In this document: positions 9,165-25,716 of the stretch, piece by piece | Layout of the letters: each line of letters begins with the position of its first letter | Numbering within the stretch: position 1 is the stretch's first letter | NCBI RefSeq assembly: GCF_018398315.1 | Contig: NZ_JAHBRW010000002.1 | Span: 108,637-172,636 of the forward strand | Origin: Chelatococcus sp. YT9 | GTDB taxonomy: Bacteria; Pseudomonadota; Alphaproteobacteria; Rhizobiales; Beijerinckiaceae | Direction of reading: 5' to 3' | Length of the DNA stretch: 64,000 nucleotides | Translations under genes and position numbers: made by a program | Notes under the pieces: model-generated | Databases searched by the model: none | What the model was told of the DNA's origin: nothing | What the model saw: the letters and a program-made list of their open reading frames with translations, nothing else

Positions 9165-9221
9165 TTGCGGATTTTGACATCATCTGTCAGATATGCCGAA
9201 CAATGCGAGGTTGCGCGCCCT

Positions 9222-10145
9222 GTGGACCGTATCGATCTTTTTCGCATCTTCACGCGGGTCGTTGATTGTTCGAGCTTCACGCGGGCGGCGGCTATCCTTG
9301 GCCTGCCACGATCTTCCGTGTCCGCAGCTGTACTGGAGCTCGAAAACCGGGTTGGAGCGCGGCTCCTCCACCGCACCACGCGCAAGGTCTCCCCGACCCA
9401 GGACGGCCTCGACTTCTACAAGCGATGCCTGCGCCTTGTCGCGGATGTTGAAGAAGCAGAAAACCTGTTTCGTCAGACAGACGCCGGCCTGACAGGCAAA
9501 CTCAGGGTTGATGTTCCCGCCCGCATCGGGCGCTTGATCATCGCCCCTGCCCTGCCGGATTTTCTCAATCGTCATCCCGGCGTGGACATTGACCTCGGCG
9601 TCACCGATCGCGCCATCAATCTGATTGAGGACAGTATCGACTGTGTGCTGCGCGTGGGCACCTTGAACGATTCAGGCCTGATCGCCCGGCCTATCGGCAA
9701 GTTGCCGCTCCTCAATGTCGCGAGCCCAGCCTATCTCGATCGCTGCGGGGTCCCCAAGTCGCCGGCAGATCTCGCCAGCCACTGGGCCGTCAATTACGCT
9801 TCCCCCTCCAATGGCCGCGTGGACAATTGGGAGTGGGTCGAGGGCGACACGTTACGCGCCATGCCCATGCGCGGTCGCGTGACCGTGAATAGCGCCGAAG
9901 CCTACATCGCCTGCTGCCTCGCGGGGCTCGGGCTCATCCAGATTCCGGCCTATGACGTCAAGAGACATGTCGAGGCGGGTGAACTCATCGCCGTGATGCC
10001 AGATCATCGCGCCGAGCCGATGCCGATGACGTTGCTCTATCCGCACCGCCAGCATCTATCTCGCCGCCTCCAAGTCTTTGCGGACTGGCTCGAGTCGTTG
10101 CTGCGACGAGAACTTCTCACGTCGGATCCCTGTCCTCCGGTCTGA
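9222..10145 (+). CDS. LysR-family transcriptional regulator
   Basis: This is a LysR-type regulator of 307 residues. The N-terminal winged helix-turn-helix is clear (FTRAAAILGLPRSSVSAAVL, then LLHRTTRKVSPTQDG), followed by a linker helix and a periplasmic-binding-like effector domain (VDIDLGVTDRAINLIEDSIDCVLRVG is split over two strands of it). This pattern belongs to the common DsdC/GcvA-like CrgA branch that controls adjacent oxidoreductases. I chose the GTG giving VDRIDLFRIF because LysR homology begins there; the frame extends 57 bases upstream. It is divergent from an SDR, which it probably controls. The co-inducer is unknown. Confidence 0.9.
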   Translation: MDRIDLFRIFTRVVDCSSFTRAAAILGLPRSSVSAAVLELENRVGARLLHRTTRKVSPTQDGLDFYKRCLRLVADVEEAENLFRQTDAGLTGKLRVDVPARIGRLIIAPALPDFLNRHPGVDIDLGVTDRAINLIEDSIDCVLRVGTLNDSGLIARPIGKLPLLNVASPAYLDRCGVPKSPADLASHWAVNYASPSNGRVDNWEWVEGDTLRAMPMRGRVTVNSAEAYIACCLAGLGLIQIPAYDVKRHVEAGELIAVMPDHRAEPMPMTLLYPHRQHLSRRLQVFADWLESLLRRELLTSDPCPPV

Positions 10146-11088: not shown

Positions 11089-11192
11089 TATAAGAAGAGG
11101 GGCTACCGAAATGTCAAGAAGCATCGCCAGTTGCAATGGCCCAAAGGCCACGCGGCGCATGGAGCGTTCAAATCGAGGAGACTGGAGAATCG

Positions 11193-12056
11193 ATGCGAAA
11201 GGCACTTCCGACCGCTTCCCGGGAGAACGACGTCAGCCTCGAGCGCGCGACAAAGCATCGGCCCAAGGCGCCCGGCACACAGGGCGCTCAGACGCTGATG
11301 CGGGGGCTCGACGTGTTGGAGGCAATCGCCTCCGGCGCGACCGATCTGCCTGCGCTCGCGAAGAAGCTCGGCACCACGCGCACGACAACGCATCGTCTCG
11401 CGTCGGCGCTTGTCGACCGGCGCTATATCAACTTCACCCCCCGCGAGGGTTACAGCCTCGGCCCAAAACTGCTCGAACTTGGCTTTCAGGCGCGGCGGGA
11501 GATGCCCTTGAGCAAGGCCGCCCACAGCCATCTACGGCGTTTGGCGGAACATACCCTCGATACCGTCCAGCTCGGCATCCTTGATGAGGATGTGGTCTTT
11601 TACATCGACAAGGTGCCCGGGCAGCGCAGGTTCGAAATCCGCTCCAGCATCGGTGATCGCCATCCTGTATGGTCCACGGGACTCGGCAAGGCGCTCGTGC
11701 TGGACATGACCGAAGCGCAATGGGCGGCCTTCTTTGACGCACGTCGCCCCGATCTTCCCTCCCCATCTCCAAGCTCGCGGACAGTCTGGTTCGACCAGAT
11801 GCGAAGCTACGCCAAGCGAGGGGTCGCCTTCGACCTTGAGGAATCGGAACCGCAATTACGCTGTGTTGCAGCGCCGATCCGGGATGCGAGCGGCGCCATT
11901 GTCGCCGCAGTCAGCGTGTCGAGCATCGCCCCCTACATGCAACCGGATCGTATGCAGGTGCTTTCACAGGATGTCCTGGAAACCGCGAAAGCGATCAGCG
12001 CTGCGCTGGGCTGGACCGATGACACCGCGGCCTCCGCTGGGGCAAAGGCGCGATAG
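11193..12056 (+). CDS. IclR-family transcriptional regulator
   Basis: This is an IclR-type regulator of 287 residues. The N-terminal winged helix-turn-helix spans about residues 30-90 (LMRGLDVLEAIASGATDLPA, then LGTTRTTTHRLASALVDRRY), and a GAF-like effector domain follows (VFYIDKVPGQRRFEIRSSIG, GVAFDLEESEPQLRCVAAPI). I chose MRKALPT after GAGGAG; a longer frame begins 57 bases upstream. It diverges from an SDR gene and is followed at 60 bases by the convergent end of the liv operon. Its operator is probably the 12-bp inverted repeat in its promoter region, which is unlike the 28-bp sites of the second IclR regulon downstream. Confidence 0.9.
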   Translation: MRKALPTASRENDVSLERATKHRPKAPGTQGAQTLMRGLDVLEAIASGATDLPALAKKLGTTRTTTHRLASALVDRRYINFTPREGYSLGPKLLELGFQARREMPLSKAAHSHLRRLAEHTLDTVQLGILDEDVVFYIDKVPGQRRFEIRSSIGDRHPVWSTGLGKALVLDMTEAQWAAFFDARRPDLPSPSPSSRTVWFDQMRSYAKRGVAFDLEESEPQLRCVAAPIRDASGAIVAAVSVSSIAPYMQPDRMQVLSQDVLETAKAISAALGWTDDTAASAGAKAR

Positions 12057-12116: not shown

Positions 12117-13091
12117 TCAAAGCGGACGCTTCAATAGCTTGGAGATAGAACCGACGATGCCTTCGCGGAAGAGAAGAACACAGACGACGAACACAACACC
12201 CTGGATCGTCGTAACCCAGTCGCCGAAGGAGGCGAAGTAATTCTGCAGGACCACGACCAACGCGGCTCCAACGGCTGGCCCGATAAACGTGTGCACGCCA
12301 CCAATCAAGGTCATCAGCACCACCTCGCCGGACATCGTCCAATAGACGTCCGTCAAACTTGCGAGTTGGAAGGCTATGGCCTTCGTCGCTCCCGCCAAGC
12401 CGGCAAAGAATGCTGACAGGACAAAGGCCAGAAACTTGTACTGATTGACCCGGTAGCCGAGAGACGTCGCACGTGGCTCATTCTCGCGAATGGCCTTCAA
12501 GGTCTGACCAAAAGGCGAGTGGATGATGCGGTGGAGTGCCAGCATCGAAAGCATGAAAAGCGCCAGCACGAACCAATAAAGCGCGCGATCATCCGCCAGC
12601 GATAGTAACCCGAACAGAAATCCGCGCGGCACCTGCTGTATGCCGTCTTCTCCACCTGTAAAAGGAGCCTGCAAGGCGAAGAAATAGACCATCTGCGCGA
12701 AGGCAAGCGTCACCATTGCGAAATAGATTCCTTGGCGACGGACTGCGAGCGCTCCGAAAACCGCACCGAGAAGGGCCGCCACGATCGCTCCAAACAGGAT
12801 AGCGAGCTCGGGCGTGAACCCCCAGATCTTCGCGGCATGGGCCGCCGCATAGCTCGCCATGCCGAAATAAGCGGCATGGCCGAAGGAGAGAAGCCCAACG
12901 TATCCGAGCAGCAGATTGAGCGCGCAAGCGAACAATGCAAAGCATAAAATCTTGATGACCAAAAGTGGATAAACAAGGAATGGCGCCGCCACCAGCAGGA
13001 AGAGCAGACCCAGCATGACTGCTAAATGATCGCGCGACATCCCCAATTTCTCAGGAGGGGCGGCTGTCGGAATGCTGCTATCAATCGCCAT
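12117..13091 (-). CDS. livM: branched-chain amino acid-type ABC transporter permease (LivM)
   Basis: This is an inner-membrane permease of the hydrophobic amino acid uptake family, about 324 residues with roughly nine to ten hydrophobic segments. It carries the LivM pattern LLLGYVGLLSFGHAAYFGMASYAAA (given here as its recognisable core GLLSFGHAAYFG) and the EAA-like loop SLTDVYWTMSGEVVLMTLIG near the C-terminus. It is the last gene of the transporter operon and starts one base after the livH stop. In catabolic clusters such transporters often import aromatic or other organic acids rather than amino acids; its neighbours here suggest that. Confidence 0.92.
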   Translation of the reverse strand: MAIDSSIPTAAPPEKLGMSRDHLAVMLGLLFLLVAAPFLVYPLLVIKILCFALFACALNLLLGYVGLLSFGHAAYFGMASYAAAHAAKIWGFTPELAILFGAIVAALLGAVFGALAVRRQGIYFAMVTLAFAQMVYFFALQAPFTGGEDGIQQVPRGFLFGLLSLADDRALYWFVLALFMLSMLALHRIIHSPFGQTLKAIRENEPRATSLGYRVNQYKFLAFVLSAFFAGLAGATKAIAFQLASLTDVYWTMSGEVVLMTLIGGVHTFIGPAVGAALVVVLQNYFASFGDWVTTIQGVVFVVCVLLFREGIVGSISKLLKRPL

Positions 13092-13092
13092 G

Positions 13093-13980
13093 TCAGGAGC
13101 TTTTTCCAAAGAGGCCGGCAGGTTTTACCATGAGAACGATGGCCATGATCACGAATATGACGGTCGCGGATGCCTCTGGCCAGAAGACCTTGGTGAAACC
13201 TTCAACTACGCCGAGGGAAAATCCCGTGATGATCGAGCCGAGGATCGATCCCATTCCGCCGATAACCACCACCGCGAAAACGACGATGATGAGGTCCGAC
13301 CCCATCGTGGGATTAACCGCATAGATCGGCGCGGCGAGCACACCCGCAAATCCGGCGAGCGCCACCCCGAAGCCATAGGTCATGGTGATCAGAAGCGGCA
13401 CATTGATGCCAAAGGCCTCAGTGAGGGTCGGATTCTCCGTGGCCGCGCGCAAATAGGACCCCAGCCGCGTCTTTTCGATCACGAACCAGGTGGAAAGGCA
13501 GACCACCAGTGATGCGACCACCACGAAAGCGCGGGAGTTAGGCAAATACATGAAGCCTAGATTATGGCCCCCGGTCAAAAGGGGCGGGAGCGCGTAGGGC
13601 AGCCCCGTTGCACCATACTGGTTGCGGAAGATCCCCGTGATGATCAGGGCCAGACCGAAGGTCAGAATCATTCCATAGAGATGATCGAGGGAATAGAGCC
13701 AGCGAAGCAGACAACGCTCGACGACGATCCCGAACAAGCCTACCGCCAGCGGTGAAAGCAGCAGTGCCCACCAGTATCCGATATCGAGATAGTACAAAAG
13801 CGCCCAGGCCCCAAAAGCACCCATCATGTAGAAAGCGCCGTGGGCGAAATTGACGATATTCAATAACCCGAAAATAACTGCGAGCCCCAGGCTGAGCATC
13901 GCGTAGAATGCGCCGTTGATCAACCCGAGCAGGAGCTGACCGAAAAGCACCTGAGGGGCAATGCCGAACAGACCTAACAT
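13093..13980 (-). CDS. livH: branched-chain amino acid-type ABC transporter permease (LivH)
   Basis: This is the second inner-membrane permease of the liv-type transporter, 295 residues. It shows the family start QLLLGLINGAFYAMLSLGLA, the motif GLLNIVNFAHGAFYMMGAF, and the C-terminal DLIIVVFAVVVIGGMGSILG loop that contacts the ATPases. It forms the heterodimeric channel with LivM and is followed almost without gap by it. Upstream comes livF at 12 bases, so the order in the transcript is K-G-F-H-M. Confidence 0.93.
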   Translation of the reverse strand: MLGLFGIAPQVLFGQLLLGLINGAFYAMLSLGLAVIFGLLNIVNFAHGAFYMMGAFGAWALLYYLDIGYWWALLLSPLAVGLFGIVVERCLLRWLYSLDHLYGMILTFGLALIITGIFRNQYGATGLPYALPPLLTGGHNLGFMYLPNSRAFVVVASLVVCLSTWFVIEKTRLGSYLRAATENPTLTEAFGINVPLLITMTYGFGVALAGFAGVLAAPIYAVNPTMGSDLIIVVFAVVVIGGMGSILGSIITGFSLGVVEGFTKVFWPEASATVIFVIMAIVLMVKPAGLFGKSS

Positions 13981-13992
13981 CTTTCCGCTCCC

Positions 13993-14721
13993 CTAGACGC
14001 CGAGATAACGATTGAGTTTGGCGGTATTCGCCGCGATTTCGCCGTTGTGGAGCATGTCGATGACCTGCCCATGCTCCATCACGAAATGCCGATCTGCGAC
14101 CGTCGCGGCAAAATGGAAGTTCTGCTCGACGAGTACGATCGTAAAGCCCCGCTCTTTCAGTTGGCCAATGGTGCGACCGATCTGCTGCACGATGACAGGC
14201 GCGAGTCCCTCTGTGGGTTCATCGAGCAGCAGCAGTCGTGCCCCTGTCCGCAGGATGCGCCCGATAGCCAGCATCTGCTGCTCGCCGCCAGATAGTTTGG
14301 TGCCCTGGCTCTTCAGTCGCTCGCGCAGGTTGGGGAAGAGGACGAAGATCTCGTCGATGCTCAAACCACCATCGGCAACAACAGGCGGTAGACGTAAGTT
14401 CTCATCCACATTCAGGCTCGAGAAAATGCCTCGATCCTCCGGGCAGAAGGCGATGCCGCTCCTTGCGATCGCGCGCGCGCTCAGCCCGATCGTCTCTTCA
14501 CCATTGAAACGGATAGAACCACGCCGCTTGCGGACAATGCCGACAATCGACTTCAAGGTTGTGCTCTTGCCTGCGCCGTTTCGGCCGAGAAGGGTCACAA
14601 CCTCGCCGGGCAGGACATCAAACTTCACCCCATGGAGCACATGGCTCTCGCCATACCATGCCTGCAGCCCGTCAACGGTGAGAAGAGGAACGGTCTTTCC
14701 GTCCGAGACCACCTCAAGCAT
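13993..14721 (-). CDS. livF: branched-chain amino acid-type ABC transporter ATPase (LivF)
   Basis: This is one of the two cytoplasmic ATPases that power the liv-type importer, 242 residues. Walker A is LLGRNGAGKSTT, the signature is LSGGEQQMLAIGR and Walker B is LLLLDEPTEGLAP, all in the LivF form. The start MLEVVSDGK overlaps the livG stop by eight bases, which suggests translational coupling; the longer frame is antisense to nothing but lacks homology. Confidence 0.93.
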   Translation of the reverse strand: MLEVVSDGKTVPLLTVDGLQAWYGESHVLHGVKFDVLPGEVVTLLGRNGAGKSTTLKSIVGIVRKRRGSIRFNGEETIGLSARAIARSGIAFCPEDRGIFSSLNVDENLRLPPVVADGGLSIDEIFVLFPNLRERLKSQGTKLSGGEQQMLAIGRILRTGARLLLLDEPTEGLAPVIVQQIGRTIGQLKERGFTIVLVEQNFHFAATVADRHFVMEHGQVIDMLHNGEIAANTAKLNRYLGV

Positions 14722-15472
14722 TGGGAACCCCGATATAAGCTTCGACAACACGAGGGTCCTTCGAGACTGTCTGATAATCTCCCTCGGCCAAAATCTTGCC
14801 CCGGGTCAGCACCGTGATGCAGTGCGACAGCGATGCCACGACTGAGAGATTATGCTCGACCATCAGAATGGTCCTGTCCTTGGAAATCCGCAGGATCAAC
14901 GCCGAGATCCGGTCGACATCCTCCTGCGTCATACCGGCCATCGGCTCGTCGAGAAGGAGCATTTCCGGGTCAAGCGCGAGTGTCGTGGCAATCTCGAGTG
15001 CCCGTTTACGCCCGTAGGGCAACTCTCCGGCCGCAGTAGTAGCGAATTCGGAAAGGCCAACAGCATCAACAAGCCTCCAAGCCTCATCGTGCAAAGAGGA
15101 GAGCACCCGTTCGGAACGCCAGAAGTCGAAGCAATCGCCGTGCAACCGACGCTGCAAGGCAACGCGCACGTTTTCCAGCACGCTCATTTGGCCAAACACA
15201 GCCGAAATCTGGAATGACCGCACGAGCCCAAGTCGTGCGATATCCGCCGGGCGCATCTTGGTGATGTCCCGACCCTTGTAGACAATGCGCCCGCGCGTCG
15301 GGGTCAAGACCTTTGTCAGAAGGTTGAAGCATGTCGTCTTGCCGGCACCGTTCGGGCCGATCAGCGCATGGATCGTGCCGCGTCGGACGGCGAGCGCGAC
15401 ATCGTCGACCGCGACAAAGCCCTTGAACTCCTTGGTGAGCCCTGAGGCACTCAGAATGATCTCGTCAGACAT
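14714..15472 (-). CDS. livG: branched-chain amino acid-type ABC transporter ATPase (LivG)
   Basis: This is the LivG-type ATPase, 252 residues. Walker A is IGPNGAGKTTCFNLL, with the LivG-specific RTFQ-like loop VRSFQISAVFGQMSVLENV. The signature segment is degenerate for this family (ELPYGRKRALEIATTLA), which is normal for LivG, and Walker B is LLLDEPMAGMTQED. The start MSDEIIL fits homology; the frame is open 228 bases further upstream without support. It follows the binding-protein gene after a 175-base gap, the largest within the operon. Confidence 0.92.
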   Translation of the reverse strand: MSDEIILSASGLTKEFKGFVAVDDVALAVRRGTIHALIGPNGAGKTTCFNLLTKVLTPTRGRIVYKGRDITKMRPADIARLGLVRSFQISAVFGQMSVLENVRVALQRRLHGDCFDFWRSERVLSSLHDEAWRLVDAVGLSEFATTAAGELPYGRKRALEIATTLALDPEMLLLDEPMAGMTQEDVDRISALILRISKDRTILMVEHNLSVVASLSHCITVLTRGKILAEGDYQTVSKDPRVVEAYIGVPNA

Positions 15473-15647: not shown

Positions 15648-16847
15648 CTATTTGGCGACGAGAGGACATTCGCTCTGAGAAAGCGGACGAAATGCCTCAT
15701 CTCCCGGGACTGTGCGCAGGATCTTGTAATAGTCCCATGGGCCCTTGGATTCGCTCGGGCTCTTCACCTGCGCGAGATACATATCGTGGACCATGCGGCC
15801 GTCGTCGCGGATCTTGCCATTCTTCGCAAAGAAATCATTCACGGGAGTAGCCTTCATCTGCGCGACGACCTTGTCAGCCGCATCCGTGCCAGCCGCCTCG
15901 ATCGCCTTCAGATAATGCATGATTGCCGAATACACGCCCGCCTGGGACATCGTCGGCATCGCTCCATGGCGCTTGAAGAACCGTTGAGACCATGCGCGGG
16001 TCTCATCATTCTGGTCCCAATAAAACCCCGTGGTGAGATACAGCCCTTGCGCGGACGGCAGGCCGATCGCGTGAATATCCGTCAAGAAAATAGCCAGCCC
16101 CGCGATCTTCGCCTTCTGCGTCAGGCCGAATTCCTGCGCCTGCTTGAGAGAATTGATCGTATCACTGCCCCCGTTGGCGAGCGCGATCACATCAGCGCCG
16201 CTGCTGGGCGCCTGGAGCAGGAAGGACGAGAAATCGGCGGTGTTGAGCGGATGCTGCACGCCTCCGACGACCTTGCCGCCGCTTTCTTCGACGACACGCG
16301 CCACATCAGCCTTCATCGTATGGCCGAAGGCATAGTCGGCCGTCAGGAAGAACCAAGACTTGCCGCCTTCCTGCACGATCGCCTTCGCAGTGCTGACGGC
16401 GGCCGCATAGGTATCCCAGGTCCAATGGATCCCGTTCGGGGAGCAGGCCTTGTTGGTCAGATCCGCCGTGCCGGCGCCTGAGACGATCAGCACTCGGTTC
16501 TTCTCTCGGGCAAGCTGCTGCACTGCAAGCACGACTGACGAATTCGGGACGTCGATGATCATGTCGACCCCCTCGGTATCGTACCAGCGGCGCGCCGTCT
16601 GGGCACCAATATCCGCCTTGTTCTGGTGGTCAGCGCTCACGAGCTCTACCGGCTTACCACCGATGCGGTTGCCGAAATCCTCGATCGCCATCTGAGCGGC
16701 AACGACCGAGCCCTTCCCTGCGAGGGACGAGAACACCCCGGTCTGGTCGGTCAGAACGCCGATCTTGACGGAGTTATCAGACATCTGGGCCATCGCTGCC
16801 GAAGCCGAGCAGGCTGCGGCGAACAGGCCAAGGCACACTTTCTTCAT
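15648..16847 (-). CDS. liv-type ABC transporter substrate-binding protein
   Basis: This is a periplasmic solute-binding protein of the leucine/isoleucine/valine-binding (Peripla_BP_6) family, 399 residues with a Sec signal peptide (MKKVCLGLFAAACSASAAMA, cleavage before QMSDNS). The mature part begins with the family strand VKIGVLTDQTGVFSSLAGKG. The DQTG form is typical of transporters found with aromatic and organic acid catabolism rather than true amino acid uptake. It heads the K-G-F-H-M operon. One of the three 28-bp operator-like sites lies 85 bases upstream, which ties the transporter to the acyl-CoA ligase and paa-like genes. Confidence 0.9.
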   Translation of the reverse strand: MKKVCLGLFAAACSASAAMAQMSDNSVKIGVLTDQTGVFSSLAGKGSVVAAQMAIEDFGNRIGGKPVELVSADHQNKADIGAQTARRWYDTEGVDMIIDVPNSSVVLAVQQLAREKNRVLIVSGAGTADLTNKACSPNGIHWTWDTYAAAVSTAKAIVQEGGKSWFFLTADYAFGHTMKADVARVVEESGGKVVGGVQHPLNTADFSSFLLQAPSSGADVIALANGGSDTINSLKQAQEFGLTQKAKIAGLAIFLTDIHAIGLPSAQGLYLTTGFYWDQNDETRAWSQRFFKRHGAMPTMSQAGVYSAIMHYLKAIEAAGTDAADKVVAQMKATPVNDFFAKNGKIRDDGRMVHDMYLAQVKSPSESKGPWDYYKILRTVPGDEAFRPLSQSECPLVAK

Positions 16848-16931: not shown

Positions 16932-16959
16932 TTGCAAAAAGCTTTTCCGCAGTGCAGAA
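16932..16959. promoter_or_regulatory. 28-bp bipartite operator-like site, copy 3
   Basis: The left part is TTGCAAAAAG and the right part is the near-palindrome TTCCGCAGTGCAGAA (16945-16959). It has the same length and spacing as copies 1 and 2 and lies upstream of the liv transporter operon. It sits in the 139-base gap between the SDR gene and the binding-protein gene. Confidence 0.75.
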
Positions 16960-16986
16960 GGATGCTCCGCGACGTGGACGTTGGGC

Positions 16987-17766
16987 TCACAGGAGACTGC
17001 GCACCAAGCCGCCGTCCACCGCGATATTCTGCGCGGTGATGTAATCGGCATGTCGCGAGCACAGAAATGCGCAGAGCGGTCCGAAATCTTCGGCAGTGCC
17101 GAGCCTCCCGGCTGGCACTGAAGCGGCCATCTGCGCGGACGCCTCCGCTTCTGAAATCTGATCGCGCGAGGCGCGGGCTCTTATGACGCGGTCGAGGGCG
17201 CCGGTCGCCATGAGACCTGGCAGAATGTTGTTCACGGTCACGCCCTTGCCGATGACTTCGCGGGCAAGCGTAGCCATCGCCCCGGTGAGACCGGCACGAA
17301 CGCCATTAGCCAGCGCCATGTTGGGATAGGGCTCCTTCACGGCAAAGGAAGTGATGTTGACGATCCGGCCGAAACCGGTCTCGATCATGCCGGGCAACAG
17401 CAGCCGCGCGGCTTCGATCGCGGCCAGCATGTTCACCTCGAGCGCCTTGCGCCAGGTCTCGAGCTGGTGGTCGGTGAACTGCCCGGTCGGCGGGCCGCCG
17501 GCATTGGTGACGAGAATGCGAATGGGACCGATCTGTTCCTGCGCCTCCGCGATCAGGCGCCCAGGCTGATCCGCATCCGACACATCTCCCTGTACGAAGA
17601 CCGCGCCGTTTCCGATCCGGGCGACCGCCGCCTTCCCCTCTTCGGCGTTGCGACCATTGATCGCGAGCCTTACACCCGCATCGCTGAGATGATGCGCGCA
17701 GGCAAAGCCGAGGCCTTTCGTTCCGCCCAGGACAAGAGCAGTTTGACCTGCAATTCCGAGATCCAT
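16987..17766 (-). CDS. atypical short-chain dehydrogenase-like protein (BKR-like)
   Basis: This is an SDR-fold protein of 259 residues with a good dinucleotide-binding motif (LVLGGTKGLGFA, residues about 11-22) and VTNAGG at about 86-91. The catalytic serine is at about residue 140 (VNITSFAVKEP), but the usual tyrosine 13 residues later is alanine and the lysine is arginine (ALANGVRAGL). This matches a known atypical 3-oxoacyl-reductase-like SDR subgroup lacking the catalytic tetrad. It may still be active by another mechanism or be structural. It lies on the same strand after the paaF-like gene and before the liv operon, within the same regulon. Confidence 0.85.
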   Translation of the reverse strand: MDLGIAGQTALVLGGTKGLGFACAHHLSDAGVRLAINGRNAEEGKAAVARIGNGAVFVQGDVSDADQPGRLIAEAQEQIGPIRILVTNAGGPPTGQFTDHQLETWRKALEVNMLAAIEAARLLLPGMIETGFGRIVNITSFAVKEPYPNMALANGVRAGLTGAMATLAREVIGKGVTVNNILPGLMATGALDRVIRARASRDQISEAEASAQMAASVPAGRLGTAEDFGPLCAFLCSRHADYITAQNIAVDGGLVRSLL

Positions 17767-17843
17767 GGCGTTGTCTCCAAACTATCCGTGTGACGATGGT
17801 ACCGCGCAGTCGTTGAACCCAACGACAACACTAGGCGGTCCGC

Positions 17844-18653
17844 TCAGGCGCCGGTGTAATGGGGCGGGCGCTTTTCGAGAAACGCGCGCATGCCCTCGTT
17901 CTTGTCACTGGTGGCGAAGAGGACCTGTAGGGCCTTGCGCTCCAACGCCAGCGCCGCACCAAGTGACGCGTCCTGCCCCTGCAGGATAACCTCCTTGATT
18001 TGGGCGAGCGCGATCGGCGGCAACTTTGTCATCTGCTCTGCCATCTTCATGGCTGTCGCAAAAACCTCTTCATCGGCAACGAGCTTGCTGACGAGGCCCA
18101 TCGCATAAGCTTCCTGCGCGTCGATGATCTCACCTGTCAGGCAAAGGCGCATCGCCTGGAACTTGCCAACGGCGCGCGTCAGGCGCTGGGTACCACCCGC
18201 GCCGGGCATTATCCCGACCCGGACCTCCGGCTGACCGAGTTTGGCGCTGCGCCCGGCGATGATGATGTCCGCATGCATGGCAAGTTCGAGTCCCCCGCCC
18301 AGCGCAAAGCCGTTCACCGCCGCGATGACCGGTTGCGGGCAACGACCAATCGCCTCCCACAGCCGTTCGTTGTGGCGAAGATACATATCGACGGCGCCGA
18401 TTTCAGCCATGTCTTGGATATCGGCTCCGGCTGCGAAGCTTGTTTCGTCGCCGGTTAGGACAACACATCGCAGGAGGCTGTCGTCGGCGAACTCCTCAAA
18501 GATTTCAGCGAGCTTCCGACGCACTGACATATTGAGAGCATTGCGCACTTGCGGCCGATTGATACGGACCACCGCGACGGCATCGCTCACGCGCTCAAGG
18601 ATCACTTCCGAATTCATGGGAAGACCCACGGATGGATTCGCGGATTTGTCCAT
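17844..18653 (-). CDS. paaF: enoyl-CoA hydratase (PaaF-like)
   Basis: This is a crotonase-family enzyme of 269 residues, expected to hydrate 2,3-dehydroadipyl-CoA or a similar enoyl-CoA. Both catalytic glutamates are present, Glu123 (GGGLELAMHAD) and Glu143 (GQPEVRVGIMPGAGGTQRL), and the CoA-binding oxyanion loop is SFAAGADIQDM. The overall pattern is that of E. coli PaaF. Its ATG overlaps the upstream thiolase stop by one base (TGATG), so the two are coupled. The frame continues far upstream inside the thiolase gene but that is a shadow. The symbol is by resemblance; the physiological enoyl-CoA is not proven. Confidence 0.88.
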   Translation of the reverse strand: MDKSANPSVGLPMNSEVILERVSDAVAVVRINRPQVRNALNMSVRRKLAEIFEEFADDSLLRCVVLTGDETSFAAGADIQDMAEIGAVDMYLRHNERLWEAIGRCPQPVIAAVNGFALGGGLELAMHADIIIAGRSAKLGQPEVRVGIMPGAGGTQRLTRAVGKFQAMRLCLTGEIIDAQEAYAMGLVSKLVADEEVFATAMKMAEQMTKLPPIALAQIKEVILQGQDASLGAALALERKALQVLFATSDKNEGMRAFLEKRPPHYTGA

Positions 18654-19855
18654 CACGCCTTCTCCATCACGAGGGCGATCCCTTGACCGACGCCGATGCA
18701 CATGCTGCACAGGGCACGCTTGGCCCCGCGCTCCTGCAGTTCCACCGCGGCGGTCAACGCGAGCCGGGCGCCGGACATCCCCAGTGGGTGCCCGAGCGCA
18801 ATCGCGCCTCCGTTCGGATTGACGTGCTCGGCGTCGTCCGGCAGGCCGAGTTCGCGTAGACACGCGAGTGCCTGCGCGGCAAATGCCTCGTTGAGCTCGA
18901 CCACATCCATGTCCGAAATTTGAAGCCCCAGACGCTCCATAAGCTTGCGGCTTGCCGGCACGGGCCCCATTCCCATGATCCGTGCCTCGACGCCCGCCGT
19001 CGCCAGCCCCACCACCCTGACAAGGGGCGTCAGACCATAGCGAGCCACCGCAGCGCCGGATGCAACTATCAACGCGGCGGCTCCGTCATTGACACCCGAC
19101 GCATTGCCCGCTGTGACACTCCCTCCTTTACGAAAAGGTGTCGGAAGCTGTGCGAGCTTTTCGACCGTCGTCTCGCGGGGATGCTCGTCCGTGTCGACGA
19201 CGATCGGCTCACCTTTTCGCTGCGGAATCGCAACGGGCACGATCTCTCGCCCGAAGCGTCCGGATTTCTGAGCCCGCGCGGCACGTTGCTGGCTGCGTGC
19301 GGCGAAGGCATCCTGATCCTCGCGTAAGATCGCGAACTGCTCGGCCACGTTCTCAGCGGTCTCCGGCATGGAATCGATGCCACAACGCTCTCTTAGTGCC
19401 GGATTGACGAAACGCCACCCGATCGTTGTGTCGAAGACCTCGGCGGAGCGGGAGAAGGGGGAGCTGGCCTTGCCCATCACGAAAGGAGCTCGCGTCATGG
19501 ATTCGACGCCACCAGCGATGATCACCTCCGCCTCGCCCGCCCGGATCGCCCGGGCCGCTTGCCCCACGGCGTCTAGACCGGAGCCGCACAGCCTGTTGAT
19601 GGTTGTGGCTGGCACGGTGTCGGGCAGTCCGGAAAGGAGCACACCCATGCGAGCCACGTTGCGGTTGTCTTCACCCGCCTGATTGGCGCAGCCCATGATG
19701 ACATCATCGATCGCCCCGGCCGGCAGTCCGGGCGCGCGCGTCATCAATTCGCGCAGAACAAGCCCCGCCATGTCGTCGGGCCGCACGGCCGCCAACGCAC
19801 CACCATAACGACCAATGGGGGTCCGCACGCCCGTGCAGATGAACGCATCCGTCAT
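18653..19855 (-). CDS. paaJ: 3-oxoadipyl-CoA thiolase (PaaJ/PcaF type)
   Basis: This is an acetyl-CoA C-acyltransferase of 400 residues. The sequence follows PaaJ/PcaF closely: [17 protein letters not shown] at the start, [15 protein letters not shown], the nucleophile Cys90 in [15 protein letters not shown], the [16 protein letters not shown] segment, His in [17 protein letters not shown] and the second cysteine in [10 protein letters not shown]. This branch cleaves 3-oxoadipyl-CoA to succinyl-CoA and acetyl-CoA, and in phenylacetate degradation also 3-oxo-5,6-dehydrosuberyl-CoA. The start MTDAFICTG is set by homology. It lies between the atypical crotonase and paaF in the minus-strand operon. 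The catalytic function is well supported; the upstream pathway is open. Confidence 0.92.
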
Positions 19856-19929
19856 GTAGCGATCTCCTTGGGGCATTCTCGAGCGAGCCGGGCACGGTTC
19901 GGCCTCGAGGATATGCCGTCAGCCTTGAA

Positions 19930-20739
19930 TTAGAGTGGGCAATCCTTGGTGAAGTTGGGTCTACGCTTCTCGCGCAGCGACGCCAGCCCTTCACGCACAT
20001 CCGGCCCTTTAAAGCCCATGAACTCAAGGGCGAGTGACGTATCGAAAGTAGGCCCTGCCATCCGCAGCCAGTTGTTCAGTGCATATTTCGTCCAACGGAT
20101 CGCAGTCGGTGAGCCGGACGCCAGTTTCTTTGCGACCTGGAGCGCTTTCTCATGCAGTTCCGCGTCGTCGACGCACAAGGAGACAAGACCGATTCGCTCC
20201 GCTTCTTCGCCGCTCACCGGCTCACAAAGCAACAGATAGTATTTCGACTTGGCGAGCCCGCAGAGGAGAGGCCAGACGATCGCGGCATGATCACCGGCAG
20301 CAACGCCGAGCCGCGTATGTCCATCGATAATGCGCGCGGAACGTGCGGCGATCGAGATGTCTGCCAGCAACCCTGCGACAAGGCCCGCTCCAACTGCCGG
20401 CCCCTGCATCGCGGAGACAATGGGTTTGGAGCAATTCACGAGATTGTAGACGAGATCGCGCGCTTCCTTCCATACACGGGTCAACGTGTGGAAATCCTCA
20501 GTCATCTCCTTGACGAGATCGAGATCGCCGCCTGACGAGAAGGCCTCACCCGCGCCGCGGATAATGACAGCCGAGACTTCAGGATCTGCATCGATGTCCC
20601 GCCATATGCGTACCAACTCTCCATGCATGATCTCATCGGCCGAGTTCAGGCGTCCGGGATTGTCCATCGTAATGCGCAGGATACGCTCTTCGGGCCAATC
20701 GAATTTCAGACGGCTATAGCTGGCGTAGGGGCTCGTCAT
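19930..20739 (-). CDS. crotonase-family protein lacking both hydratase glutamates
   Basis: This is an enoyl-CoA hydratase/isomerase superfamily protein of 269 residues. The CoA-binding region is conserved ([12 protein letters not shown]), as is the turn GPAVGAGL. However, alignment by eye with the PaaF-like neighbour places Val121 and His141 at the positions of the two catalytic glutamates, and an aspartate appears nearby in GVAAGDHAA. It is therefore unlikely to be a simple hydratase; isomerase, hydrolase or C-C lyase chemistry is possible. Its ATG overlaps the stop of the acyl-CoA ligase (ATGA), so it is translationally coupled and probably acts early on the CoA ester made by that ligase. 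Confidence 0.85.
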
Positions 20740-22268
20740 ATCTTCTTCTCCCGGTCCTTCCAGTAGGGCTCACGCAGGAAGTTCTTCTGAATCTTGCCGA
20801 TGGGTGTCTTGGGAAATTCCTGCACGAACTTCACGACCCTGGGTCGCTTGAACCGGGCGAGACGCTCTGCGCAGTGGGCGACGAGATCATCCTCCGTCAC
20901 CGACCCACCCGTTCTGATCTGGATATAAGCGGCCGGCACCTCACCCCACTTCTCGTCGGGAATTCCAAAGACGGCGCATTCCGCCACCGATGGATGCTCA
21001 TAGAGCACGTTCTCGATCTCCTTCGGATAGACGTTCTCTCCCCCCGAGATGATCATGTCCTTCGACCTGTCGACGAGAGTAACGAACCCGTCCTCATCCA
21101 CAGTCGCCAGATCGCCTGTCCATCCCCAGCCATTCCGGAAGAAATTCGCCGTTTGTTCAGGTTCGTTATAGTATTCGATCATGACGTTCTCGCCTCGGGA
21201 GACCAGTTCGCCAATTTCGCCTGCCTTAACTGGGTTGCCTTCTCGATCCACCACAGCAAGGTCGATGTTATAGGCCTGGCGCCCGACCGAGCCGAGCTTG
21301 GCAGGTAGGTTCCAATGCCGCAGCACAGTGAGAACGCCAACCTCCGACTGCCCGTAGATCTGCGTCAGCTTCAACGCCGGCAATTTGGCGAGCAGATCCC
21401 GCTGCACCCAGTCCGGCATCGGCGCTCCCGCGAACGAGAGCTTCGTCCAGGTCTTGAAATTGTCAGCGTCGAAGGCCGGATCGCTGATCACCATGCTTGC
21501 CTGGGTCGGCACCATGAATGCCGCTGTCATGCCGGTTGCGCGCGCCATGGCCGCGAAATCCGCGACATTCCATTTTGAAAGGAAGGTGCTTGTCGCACCT
21601 GCCAAGACAGCCGGCTGGAACATGATATTGAGCGCGGCCACGTGGAACAAGGGCGTGACGATTCCAACCACATCGCGCTCGTCAATCGCCTCCTCCACCA
21701 TCACCGTATGAGCCGTGATCATGCGGTTGCGATGGCTTGTCAGAACGCCTTTCGGGCGGCCGGTGGTGCCTCCGGTATAGGTCATGCTGAAAGGTTCGTC
21801 CTCGTGGATTTCCACCTTCGGACAATCGGGGGCGCCGCTGGCGAGGACTTTCTCGAAGTCCACCGCCCCTTCAGTGCGGCCGCCGACGCAGATGTAGGTC
21901 CGGATCTTCGGCAACGATGCTCGCACAGCCGCAATCTTTTCAGCAAAGACATGCTCGAAGATCAGGATTTCGACATCTGCCTTGTCGAGCACGTACTGCA
22001 GCTCTTCCGGCGCGTAGAGCACGGAGATATTGACAAGCACACCGCCCGAGCGGGCGGCACCGAAGAATGTGATGCCGTATTCGGTGCGGTTCCGACTGAT
22101 GATCCCGACCTTTCGCCCCTTCGCCAGGCCAAGGCCGATCAGGGCGTTGGCCAGCCTGTTGGCGGCGAGATCAAGGTCCTGATAGCTCAGTGAGGTCCCC
22201 TGCCAGAGGATGGCAGGCTTCCTGGGAAAACGTTCGGCTGAGCGACGTAGCATGTCACCGGTCAGCAT
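20736..22268 (-). CDS. acyl-CoA synthetase (AMP-forming)
   Basis: This is an adenylate-forming acid:CoA ligase of 510 residues that activates a carboxylic acid with ATP and CoA. The phosphate-binding loop is [14 protein letters not shown] (residues about 162-175), the adenine region reads QIYGQSEVG, the hinge region [15 protein letters not shown] and [17 protein letters not shown], and the C-terminal catalytic lysine lies in [14 protein letters not shown]. It is not PaaK-like. The start [10 protein letters not shown] follows GGGAGG; the upstream frame extension overlaps the divergent IclR gene. It is the first gene of the minus-strand operon and has a 28-bp operator-like site about 95 bases upstream. 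Substrate is probably an aromatic, alicyclic or medium-chain acid imported by the liv transporter. Confidence 0.9.
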
Positions 22269-22362
22269 CCATTTCCTCCCTTTGCGAATGGAGCGGCGTG
22301 TCGCCTGCGTTACGAAGGTTGCGTGGACTCTCTCCGAGAGAGGTGATATTCGCAATGTATAA

Positions 22363-22390
22363 TTGCGAAAAGCCTTTCCGCACAGCGGAA
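22363..22390. promoter_or_regulatory. 28-bp bipartite operator-like site, copy 1
   Basis: The left part is TTGCGAAAAG and the right part is the near-palindrome TTCCGCACAGCGGAA (22376-22390). It lies between the divergent acyl-CoA ligase and IclR genes and ends 13 bases before the IclR ATG, so IclR binding here would also control its own gene. Of 28 positions, 19 are identical in all three copies. Confidence 0.8.
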
Positions 22391-22403
22391 TAGTCGAGGA
22401 GCG

Positions 22404-23216
22404 ATGATGCAGCGCGAGGACCGACAATTCGTCGACGCATTCGCGAGGGGACTGGCTATACTTGAAGCCCTTTCGCGCGAACAACGACCGCTCAATAACG
22501 GCGAGCTTTCACGCGCAACAGGCCTGCCGCCTTCCACCGTCAGCCGCCTCACTCACACCGCGATGGCGCTTGGTTATCTGCGCTTCAGCCAGTCGAAGCG
22601 TGCCTATGAACTAACCCCGAAGAACCTCACCCTCGGCTACCCGGTCTTGGCCGGGATGACATTGCTTGACCGAGCGCGGCCCCTGCTCAAACAACTGTCG
22701 GAGGAGACCGGCGAAACGGTGGGTCTTGTCATTCGCGATGGCTTACATGTGACCTTCGTCGAGGTGGTGCAGGGCTCCGAGCTCGTCGCGGTTCGTCTTG
22801 CGACGGGCGGACGCTTGCCCATTGCCGTCTCAGCAGCCGGCATTGCTATCCTCGCCGCCATGCCGGATCGCGATAGGCGCATTCTCGCCACACGCGTGCG
22901 GGCCCATCTCGCCAAGCGCGGCGGGAACGTGGAGACGTTCAACGCCAAGCTCGTAGAGGCCACGGAACTCGGCATCTGCTTTATTCGTGACGCCTGGCGG
23001 CGCGGGATCGGCGGTATCGCCATGGGGCTTGAGAACAATGGAGAAATGGCTGCGATCACCATTCCCATCGCAACGGGCAGCGTCAGCGAGATGGACATGC
23101 ACGGCCGCCTCGCCGACGCCCTGAGGGCAACGATTGACCTCTTGCGCGGAACGGCCGGCGGCGCTCACTCCGTCCAGACCGGAACGCCCAGCGAGGCCCG
23201 GCGGCGCAGCCACTGA
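22404..23216 (+). CDS. IclR-family regulator of the paa-like regulon
   Basis: This is an IclR/PcaR-type transcription factor of 270 residues. The N-terminal winged helix-turn-helix is FARGLAILEALSREQRPLNN followed by LSRATGLPPSTVSRLTHTAM, and the effector domain is recognisable in VTFVEVVQGSELVAVRLATG and GIGGIAMGLENNGEMAAI. It is divergent from the acyl-CoA ligase, with a 28-bp operator-like site directly before its start. The last 52 bases overlap the convergent end of the paaH-like gene, so both C-termini share DNA. The ATG is doubled (MM), so the start may be three bases later. I infer that it controls all three 28-bp sites. Confidence 0.9.
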   Translation: MMQREDRQFVDAFARGLAILEALSREQRPLNNGELSRATGLPPSTVSRLTHTAMALGYLRFSQSKRAYELTPKNLTLGYPVLAGMTLLDRARPLLKQLSEETGETVGLVIRDGLHVTFVEVVQGSELVAVRLATGGRLPIAVSAAGIAILAAMPDRDRRILATRVRAHLAKRGGNVETFNAKLVEATELGICFIRDAWRRGIGGIAMGLENNGEMAAITIPIATGSVSEMDMHGRLADALRATIDLLRGTAGGAHSVQTGTPSEARRRSH

Positions 23217-24664
23217 CTGGGACGGTAACGGTCATCCCCGGTGAGGGCCTGCAGCGTTGTGAGAATCGCTAGGATGTTGCGAGCGCCGCAGGATTCCACG
23301 AATTCAAGCGGACCTTGCGGGTAATTGAGCCCAAGTCGCATCGCCTTGTCGATATCGCGCGGAGCCGCCAGTCCGGCCTGGGCCATTTCGCACCCCAGAT
23401 TGGCAACCATCGCGACGATCCGCTGGGCGATGAAGCCCGGCGAGTCAGCAATCGCCGTGACTGACCGACCACGCGCGATGAGTGTATCGATTATGGCCTG
23501 CCGCATCGCCAGATCGCTGCCCGGCGCAGTCATCACGGTGACCCGCTTTGACGTGTCGAAGCTCAAATCAAGCGCAATCAGCCGGCGGGCGTCGACGCCG
23601 TGGCGTGTCGCAAACGCGGTCGCATCCTCACCGAGCGGCGCACAAAGCAACGGCGAAGTGCCATCGTCGCTTGCCAAGCACCTCAAGCCAAGCTCGTCAG
23701 CGAACTTCACGAGGCGATCGCAACGCTCCACCAGGACAACTTGCGCCGGCGCTCCGCCGGCGCTGGTCGCGTCCGCGGACGGCTTCCCCGCATGTGATCC
23801 ATAAGCATAAAACCCCCGCCCCGTCTTTCGGCCAAGCTGGCCCGTTTCCATGAGATAGCGATGATAAGGCGTCGAGCGCAGGCGCGGATCGCCGAAGAAG
23901 CTCTCATGAACAAAGCGCGTGACAGGAAAGTTCACGTCGATGCCGGTCAGGTCCATCAGCTCGAATGGCCCCATTCGGAACCCGCAGCAGTCGCGCATCA
24001 CTGCGTCGATTTCAGCGGGAGAAGCGATGTTCTCATGAAGAATGGCGAGCGCCTCCGTTGCGTAAGCGCGCCCCCCTAAGTTGACGAGAAAGCCGGGCGT
24101 ATCGCGCACCAGAACAGGCTCACGCCCAAGACGCCTTCCAAGGTCGGTTAGGGCTGCGACGACGACGTCCGTCGTCTCCGGCCCGGGAATGACCTCCACC
24201 AGCCGCATCAAAGGAACCGGATTGAAGAAATGCAACCCGCCGACGCGCCCGCGGTGTCGAAGCCCCGCCGCGATAGCACCGATAGGCAGCGAGGACGTAT
24301 TCGAGGCGAGGATCGTATCCTGACCAACAATATCCTCGAGGGCCTTGAACAAGGAACGCTTCGCTTCGAGATTCTCGACAATGGCCTCGATAACCACGTT
24401 GCAGTCTGCGAGCGCAGCGAGGACATCCACGGCGACGACGCAGCTGATGCTGGCCTCGGCCTCTTCCGTCTTCAGCTTGCCTTCATCGACGCGCTTGCGC
24501 AGACGCCTTGCAATATCGCCCCGCGCTGCCTCGGCGGCACCCGCTCGGGTATCGAAGAGGCGCACCTCAACCCCCGCTGCCGAAGCGACCTGGGCGATCC
24601 CTGAGCCCATAGCGCCCGCCCCGACAATGCCCAGTATCAGTCGCGATTCCATTATAGTCGCCAT
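23165..24664 (-). CDS. paaH: 3-hydroxyacyl-CoA dehydrogenase (PaaH-like)
   Basis: This is an NAD-dependent 3-hydroxyacyl-CoA dehydrogenase of 499 residues, the size of PaaH/PaaC proteins. The Rossmann motif is GIVGAGAMGSGIAQV near the N-terminus, the catalytic histidine lies in VGGLHFFNPVPLMRLVEV, and the first C-terminal domain shows DTPGFLVNLGGRAYATEA. A second 3HCDH C-terminal domain follows (ADSPGFIAQRIVAMVANLG and LGLNYPQGPLEFVES), as in PaaH. The start MATIMES follows GGAGAGG. It stands divergent to the paaG-like gene with a 28-bp operator-like site between. It probably oxidises 3-hydroxyadipyl-CoA before the PaaJ-like thiolase. Confidence 0.9.
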   Translation of the reverse strand: MATIMESRLILGIVGAGAMGSGIAQVASAAGVEVRLFDTRAGAAEAARGDIARRLRKRVDEGKLKTEEAEASISCVVAVDVLAALADCNVVIEAIVENLEAKRSLFKALEDIVGQDTILASNTSSLPIGAIAAGLRHRGRVGGLHFFNPVPLMRLVEVIPGPETTDVVVAALTDLGRRLGREPVLVRDTPGFLVNLGGRAYATEALAILHENIASPAEIDAVMRDCCGFRMGPFELMDLTGIDVNFPVTRFVHESFFGDPRLRSTPYHRYLMETGQLGRKTGRGFYAYGSHAGKPSADATSAGGAPAQVVLVERCDRLVKFADELGLRCLASDDGTSPLLCAPLGEDATAFATRHGVDARRLIALDLSFDTSKRVTVMTAPGSDLAMRQAIIDTLIARGRSVTAIADSPGFIAQRIVAMVANLGCEMAQAGLAAPRDIDKAMRLGLNYPQGPLEFVESCGARNILAILTTLQALTGDDRYRPSQWLRRRASLGVPVWTE

Positions 24665-24802
24665 CGGCGTTGTCCTCTCCTGGCAGCAGCAACGACCTCC
24701 GCCAGTGACCATCGCGTGGCGAGCGATGGCGGAAGTCTTCGCGGATGATCGTTTGTGAATGATGCTGAAATGACCGCGGCCGAGATCGAGGGTCAAGCAG
24801 TT

Positions 24803-24830
24803 TTGCGGAAAACTCTTTCGCACTGCGGAA
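24803..24830. promoter_or_regulatory. 28-bp bipartite operator-like site, copy 2
   Basis: The left part is TTGCGGAAAA and the right part is TTTCGCACTGCGGAA (24816-24830). It lies between the divergent paaH-like and paaG-like genes, so one site may serve both. On the minus strand a TTGACC that could be a -35 element lies just beyond it (24792-24797). Confidence 0.8.
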
Positions 24831-24918
24831 CAATTAGTCTGCCTGGCGGCCACGTGTTCGCTAGGATGATGCATGCGGGCCGGACCTGGCCTCCGTTCAT
24901 CATTAGTCGGGATCGACC

Positions 24919-25716
24919 ATGCCCCCTCACGAGACTGGGCTGAGCCAGAGTGAAAGTGCACCCGTTCTCATGGGCAAGGGCGAGGGCTATCGTATCCTCA
25001 CGCTGAACAGGCCATCGCGCCTCAATGCCTTCAATGTCGCGATGCACGAGGCGCTGCGTACAGCTCTCGACGAGGCGGAAGCGGACGACGAATGCAAGGC
25101 GCTGATCCTGACGGGGGCCGGCCGGGGCTTTTGCACGGGTCAGGATCTCGCGGACCGTATTCCCCCCGACGGTACGGTGCCGGATCTCGGCGACAGCCTC
25201 GAGCGCTACTACAATCCGCTCGTGCGACGATTACGCGCGTTCCGCTGCCCTGTGATCGCCGCCGTCAATGGCGTGGCGGCCGGGGCCGGTGCGAATATCG
25301 CGCTGGCCTGCGACATCGTCATCGCCGCGCGCTCGGCGCGCTTCCTCGAACTCTTTACCAATCTCGGCCTCGTCCCCGATTGTGGCGGCACCTGGATTCT
25401 TCCGCGTCTGATCGGTCCGGCCAGAGCGACAGCGACCATGCTTCTTGCCACGCCGGTGTCCGCCGAACAGGCTGCAGCATGGGGTCTTGTCTGGAAAATC
25501 TGCGAGGATGAAGACCTTGCGACCGAAGCCCGAGCCATCGCAGCTCTTCTCGCAAGAAAACCATCTCTTGGAATAACGCTCACCAAGCAGGCACTTGGGG
25601 CAGCTGGCACAAACAGCTTGTCCGCCCAGCTCGATCTGGAACGCGATCTGCAGCGGCAGGCTGGGTTGGAGCCAGGCTATGTCGAGCGGGTCAAGGCATT
25701 CCTGGCGAAACGCTGA
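24919..25716 (+). CDS. paaG: enoyl-CoA hydratase/isomerase (PaaG-like)
   Basis: This is a crotonase-family protein of 265 residues with the PaaG pattern: GRGFCTGQDLADR, LERYYNPLVRRLRAF, NGVAAGAGANIALACD and the catalytic aspartate Asp154 in NLGLVPDCGGTWILPRLIG. In phenylacetate degradation PaaG isomerises the ring-1,2-epoxide CoA ester to the oxepin and also shifts a double bond later in the pathway. Here there is no PaaABCDE epoxidase nearby, so the double-bond isomerase role is more likely, or another ring CoA ester is used. It is transcribed alone, divergent from paaH, under a 28-bp operator-like site, and is convergent with the LacI gene. Confidence 0.87.
   Translation: MPPHETGLSQSESAPVLMGKGEGYRILTLNRPSRLNAFNVAMHEALRTALDEAEADDECKALILTGAGRGFCTGQDLADRIPPDGTVPDLGDSLERYYNPLVRRLRAFRCPVIAAVNGVAAGAGANIALACDIVIAARSARFLELFTNLGLVPDCGGTWILPRLIGPARATATMLLATPVSAEQAAAWGLVWKICEDEDLATEARAIAALLARKPSLGITLTKQALGAAGTNSLSAQLDLERDLQRQAGLEPGYVERVKAFLAKR

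Follow-up and report, generated by a model that had tools for sequence, protein, structure and literature searches.

Which genes does an IclR-family regulator control when the same short sequence recurs in front of several neighbouring operons? The question is raised by a locus of Chelatococcus sp. YT9 (GCF_018398315.1), in which we analysed a window of 64,000 nucleotides (contig NZ_JAHBRW010000002.1, forward-strand positions 108,637-172,636). Three copies of a 28-base sequence lie in the window, in the control regions of a liv-type transporter operon, of a divergent pair formed by an acyl-coenzyme A (acyl-CoA) ligase operon and an iclR gene, and of the divergent genes paaH and paaG. Judged from the sequence, these sites are very probably operators of the IclR protein encoded at 22404. 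A single IclR regulon joining the three control regions, in which binding is predicted, is strongly supported by the evidence described below.

Read directly from the letters, the sites are TTGCAAAAAGCTTTTCCGCAGTGCAGAA at 16932, TTGCGAAAAGCCTTTCCGCACAGCGGAA at 22363 and TTGCGGAAAACTCTTTCGCACTGCGGAA at 24803. A preliminary description of this DNA had reported three sites of equal length and spacing with 19 of 28 positions identical in all three, and we found both the coordinates and the count to be exact. It had also described each site as bipartite. This did not hold, as every site consists of three 9-base-pair (bp) boxes of one kind, of which box 1 is forward, box 2 reverse and box 3 forward. 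The left block of that description is one box, and its right near-palindrome is present and made of two. The box starts are spaced 10 bp, the box reads approximately TGCGGAAAR with the core NGCRRAA, and each full operator runs 2 bases past the 28-mer (Table 1).

This anatomy corresponds to a published form of IclR operator. Suvorova and Gelfand described two IclR motif types and, for 32 orthologous groups, predicted binding to three boxes that alternate in direction, in agreement with PcaU, PobR and HmgR (PMC8222616). The third box of PcaU is needed for binding, as cited in the same source. In our sites, boxes 2 and 3 pair as TTCCGCANTGCGGAA, the published group 1 motif, and boxes 2 and 1 form a group 2-like pair, so that three alternating boxes hold one pair of each published type. 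The two dyad centres lie 10 bp apart, which is one helical turn. When compared by eye with WTTYCRYW3RYGRAAW, the box 2-3 pair agreed at most positions, and at most positions it falls in the published WTT-11-AAW subgroup.

We examined the specificity of the sites in the window and in the 6.74-Mb genome. With up to 3 mismatches, a degenerate 28-mer matched three places in the window, where 0.01 were expected and where none of 100 shuffles reached three. The whole genome held four matches and the reversed control none; the fourth (C2:1455275, 3 mismatches) lies within a thiolase reading frame and was rejected as a regulon member. A profile of 12 sites, for which 150 of 4837 first-look candidates were scored, returned nine rows: E was 1.0e-6 to 1.3e-6 for the three sites and 0.09 to 4.2 for the other six. 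Of these six rows, one is the iclR site read on the other strand and four lie inside reading frames. The weak matches L025, L027 and L028 were discarded as lying within reading frames; the weakest row (L029; C3:138450, E 4.2) was also discarded, being located at the edge of a 140-amino-acid frame and between the ends of two converging frames. The 15-bp near-palindrome was dropped as a motif of its own, because it is not specific by itself (56 places at up to 2 mismatches compared with 31 for the control). Because profile and pattern were both derived from these very sites, whose scores benefit from this, specificity is judged more fairly by the shuffles and the reversed control. The preliminary description had placed the sites in control regions only and had proposed a genome-wide scan. 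Both window and genome yielded three strong matches, each in a control region, and no scatter of strong copies was seen, which bears that claim out.

Conservation of the sites in related clusters

Relatives of the IclR protein were rare at the cut-offs used. They were found in at least 3 of 149 near relatives, the own genome included (E 1e-40), and in at least 2 of 397 genomes of the order (E 1e-50); in the class set the own genome was the only one of 385, among the candidates scored. The three sets overlap, and up to 17 or 6 candidates were scored per genome, so some IclR relatives may be missed. No IclR relative was found in plasmid records at E 1e-30. A genome collection scan yielded Microvirga alba (G852; locus L005) and a distant partial match, L006, which was set aside since the matrix gave no high-scoring site there. 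The five related clusters are those of M. alba, G003 (L014) and G049 (L015) and two copies in G370 (L019 and L020), a member of another family of the order; the M. alba, G003 and G049 loci span about 20 kb each.

In M. alba, G003 and G049, a matrix built from the window sites only gave its three top three-box scores per locus in the three orthologous gaps. Genes from the transporter binding protein through paaG are ordered identically in these three genomes and our own. Across 16 sites, all chosen as best-scoring (12 from these four genomes and 4 from G370), 47 of 48 boxes retain the NGCRRAA core, in 16/16 sites for box 1, 16/16 for box 2 and 15/16 for box 3. Compared with G049, identity over the 33-bp site was 0.70 (liv), 0.73 (iclR/ligase) and 0.67 (paaHG), against 0.23, 0.70 and 0.40 in the left flanks and 0.17, 0.27 and 0.27 in the right flanks. 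The left flank with the high value, on the ligase side, contains a conserved promoter-like element. In three relatives where the near-relative search gave no IclR orthologue, no site had E below 0.1, and the best reached 0.745 (G001), 0.105 (G002) and 0.248 (G008).

Weaker matches in the related genomes were also inspected, all but three rows of G008 and one each of G001, G049:C87 and G852:C5. A match in G049 (L048, E 0.0077) lies within a hydratase frame, and L034 (G002), L050 (G003) and L057 (M. alba) lie within reading frames; all four were rejected. Separately, G003 has a two-box site, TTCCGCTCTGCGGAA, without a good box 1 (L014, 2737-2765), in the gap preceding another liv operon that adjoins the cluster. 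Its profile E was 0.9 for the genome, and it is a lead only for a further regulon member. G049 has the liv binding protein (L015, 2153-3966), followed by other genes; the remaining four genes of the liv transporter were found neither in this locus nor in the adjoining 12 kb (L061).

The two G370 copies are rearranged. Their IclR proteins are 64-65% identical to the window IclR, and liv genes were not found in either copy. Instead, a TRAP-like binding protein and a large membrane subunit, assigned by inspection of translations and not by a family scan, head a gene run that includes the SDR (short-chain dehydrogenase) gene and paaH. A PaaG-like gene, whose product is 41-42% identical to the window PaaG, follows the ligase, hydratase and thiolase genes. 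When the matrix was built without G370, its two best positions in each copy were before the TRAP-like genes and in the iclR/ligase gap. With one site per control region after rearrangement and transporter swap, the operators appear to have followed control regions and not particular genes, which makes G370 a natural experiment. In L020 the match to the NF005595-type hydratase breaks in two near 9496-9500, as a frameshift would cause.

The presumed regulator and its proposed mode of control

The protein encoded at 22404 has the helix-turn-helix and the C-terminal ligand domain of the IclR family (Table 1), and the helix-turn-helix segment PST(V/I)SRLTHT is kept in all six aligned IclR sequences. 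Of four window regulators tested, it is the only one with orthologues throughout the five related clusters. The claim of one regulon made in the preliminary description is thus supported by the conservation of the sites, by their co-occurrence with iclR, and by the way they track control regions through rearrangement and transporter replacement.

How would IclR act from these sites? We found that box 1 faces the start of the ligase, transporter or paaH operon in 16/16 sites. Furthermore, the pattern TTGCGR-N17-GA(A/G)AGT begins on the minus strand 8 bp beyond box 1 in 6/6 clusters, the own cluster included. We take this element for the ligase promoter; on that reading transcription would start near 22320, placing the operator at about -44 to -72, where an activator would be expected. 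With either the acid or its CoA thioester serving as inducer, IclR bound a short way upstream of the -35 regions would activate transcription of the ligase, transporter and paaH operons. Dimerisation on the three boxes could go two ways, box 2 pairing with box 3 or with box 1. At the same time bound IclR would block iclR, whose ATG follows the end of this site by 11 to 13 bp; the spacing of 13 bases given in the preliminary description is correct for the 28-mer (end at 22390, ATG at 22404). Autoregulation of iclR is likely from this position. Position and orientation incline us towards activation, and not repression, of the catabolic operons. The paaG gene faces box 3 and is possibly controlled by the same site, as the least supported target. 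Taken as a whole, the explanation by three-box IclR operators, activation of three operons and repression of iclR appears probable.

At the ligase promoter candidate we observed a perfect inverted repeat, TTCGCAA-N7-TTGCGAA (window 22349-22369), formed by the candidate ligase -35 element and box 1. It may represent a fourth box, and is also perfect in M. alba and G003 and imperfect in G049 and G370. At liv, a sigma-54 promoter was considered by eye and dropped.

Simple repression has a precedent. IclR would bind the same operators but act as a repressor of all operons, released by ligand, much as the IclR protein PheR shuts down an aromatic operon by occupying +23 to -21 (PMC13273656); the iclR side itself looks repressed by position. 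However, with the candidate ligase promoter beyond box 1, the site falls upstream of the -35 region and not over the start, and the constant direction of box 1 suits a polar contact with RNA polymerase. We consider simple repression of all operons unlikely.

Several observations nevertheless weigh against activation by this IclR protein or weaken the support for it. Its score with the PcaR/PcaU/PobR model TIGR02431, the best of the 8 NCBIfam models listed, was 123.9 bits against a cut-off of 284.75. It is therefore not filed in that subfamily, and because the score is so far below the cut-off, the analogy with activators depends on the form and position of the operator. The ligase promoter pattern was written after the alignment had been seen, without a chance control, and a generic sigma-70 scan gave no promoter in the region. 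A promoter candidate was found at the ligase only; by eye, the -35 regions at liv and paaH are weak. As regards conservation, identity in the left flank of the iclR site was 0.93 (G003), 0.80 (M. alba) and 0.70 (G049), compared with 0.91, 0.91 and 0.73 in the site, and in the liv left flank it was 0.90 (G003) and 0.70 (M. alba), compared with 0.94 and 0.76. With several flanks about as conserved as the sites, G003 and M. alba tell less. Finally, in G003, the nearest relative, three other regulators of the window have orthologues too: the LacI-type (25893, 93%), a second IclR (11136, 84%) and the LysR-type (9165, 88%).

All three of these genes are nearby in the window, and the sites might accordingly be operators of one of them. 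In the M. alba, G049 and G370 loci, however, the sites are present and none of the three has an orthologue, even with M. alba and G049 extended by 11-12 kb. The second IclR gave only 29-30% matches there, landing on the iclR genes of G370. The box form, moreover, is that of IclR proteins, and we regard control by another of these regulators as very improbable. The second IclR-type gene (window 11136-12056) and the LysR-type gene (9165-10145) lie past the liv operon and flank an SDR gene. We consider it hardly credible that the inverted repeat serves as a terminator of transcription or is a short mobile repeat. A terminator scan did flag 16959-16945 (minus strand), which lies downstream of the SDR gene of the ligase operon. 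The two remaining sites, however, are located between divergent genes and were not flagged, no further strong genomic copies were found, and the three relatives without iclR showed no strong site.

Genes of the predicted regulon and known systems

The operators, genes and promoter candidates of the IclR regulon are collected in Table 1.

Table 1. Features of the predicted IclR regulon, in window positions
Feature	Position	Strand	Evidence
Three-box operator (predicted), liv transporter operon	16932..16961	+	boxes 16933-16941 (+), 16943-16951 (-), 16953-16961 (+); orthologous sites in M. alba, G003 and G049, also upstream of TRAP-like operons in G370
Three-box operator (predicted), ligase operon/iclR gap	22363..22392	+	boxes 22364-22372 (+), 22374-22382 (-), 22384-22392 (+); kept in 6/6 aligned clusters, own included
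Three-box operator (predicted), paaH/paaG gap	24803..24832	+	boxes 24804-24812 (+), 24814-24822 (-), 24824-24832 (+); kept in M. alba, G003 and G049
iclR, presumed regulator	22404..23216	+	HTH_IclR PF09339 56.4 bits (cut-off 22); IclR_C PF01614 70.6 bits (cut-off 24)
Candidate ligase promoter, TTGCGA-N17-GAGAGT	22327..22355	-	8 bp from box 1; inferred
Possible iclR -10, TATAAT	22358..22363	+	overlaps first base of site; not well conserved in relatives; inferred
Acyl-CoA ligase, first gene of ligase operon	20736..22268	-	Pfam AMP-binding 259.5 bits
Enoyl-CoA hydratase family protein, NF005595 type	19930..20739	-	473 bits (cut-off 292)
3-Oxoadipyl-CoA thiolase, PcaF type	18653..19855	-	TIGR02430 672 bits (cut-off 597)
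Enoyl-CoA hydratase, PaaF-like	17844..18653	-	NF006007 405.5 bits (cut-off 355); PaaF model 273.8, below cut-off 371
SDR, last gene of ligase operon	16987..17766	-	adh_short_C2 162 bits
liv-type periplasmic binding protein, first gene of transporter operon	15648..16847	-	Peripla_BP_6 392 bits
liv transporter, two ABC ATPases and two permeases	12117..15472	-	reading frames and translations; family by inspection
3-Hydroxyacyl-CoA dehydrogenase, PaaH-like	23165..24664	-	NF006124 596 bits (cut-off 508); PaaH model 466, below cut-off 669
PaaG family isomerase	24919..25716	+	TIGR02280 347.7 bits, just over cut-off 345.15

The lower phenylacetate pathway consists of PaaG, PaaF, PaaH and PaaJ/PcaF, and 3-oxoadipyl-CoA thiolase yields succinyl-CoA and acetyl-CoA. 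The regulon resembles this pathway in uniting a PaaG-family isomerase, a PaaF-like hydratase, a PaaH-like dehydrogenase and a 3-oxoadipyl-CoA thiolase, and differs from it in an extra hydratase and the SDR. A phenylacetate (paa) cluster would hold the phenylacetyl-CoA epoxidase paaABCDE. PaaA (TIGR02156), the sole epoxidase subunit searched for and the one on which we judge this, was not found in the own genome, and the same search matched 4 of 14 control genomes. The label paa-like, used in the preliminary description, is thus only partly apt, since the genes resemble the lower half of phenylacetate degradation and PaaA was not found. Most likely the products are succinyl-CoA and acetyl-CoA, made from an acid entering the pathway as its CoA thioester, and this acid is probably other than phenylacetate. 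The binding protein, ligase and hydratase match solved structures named only in general terms, so we claim no substrate. More speculatively, the regulon may represent an undescribed route by which an organic acid, ABC- or TRAP-imported according to the host, reaches 3-oxoadipyl-CoA without phenylacetyl-CoA epoxidase, while the ligase -35 element TTGCGA, a mirror of box 1, doubles as a fourth box shared or contested by regulator and polymerase; this combination is tentative and rather improbable.

Both the kind of operator and the kind of regulon are already known, and this is an ordinary type of bacterial gene control. The three-box operators of PcaU, PobR and HmgR are like ours in serving catabolism with transport, and the transporter sets that co-occur in IclR regulogs include LivKHMGF and DctPQM (PMC8222616). 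In contrast to the TTCGATW-type box of PcaU, the box here, TGCGGAAAR, is of the WTT-11-AAW type (PMC8222616). The enzymes also differ from those of the PcaU, PobR and HmgR systems, and the regulator is only distantly similar.

A further comparison is offered by Agrobacterium tumefaciens, in which PobR activates the divergent pobA and represses its own gene (PMC12285266). Both systems have an IclR-family regulator beside a divergent catabolic gene with a single intergenic control region, and negative autoregulation was shown for PobR and is predicted here. In the portion of that report used here, however, PobR has one target gene, compared with our three control regions including that of a transporter, and the binding sequence differs (PMC12285266).

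Collectively, these data describe a small, clean candidate regulon with one regulator and three sites, beyond which a further strong genomic site was not found. Since the operator has kept to its control regions through a transporter replacement and a new operon layout, the two-way dimerisation that we propose for the three boxes lends itself readily to testing, and the regulon shows which genes probably belong to one acid pathway.

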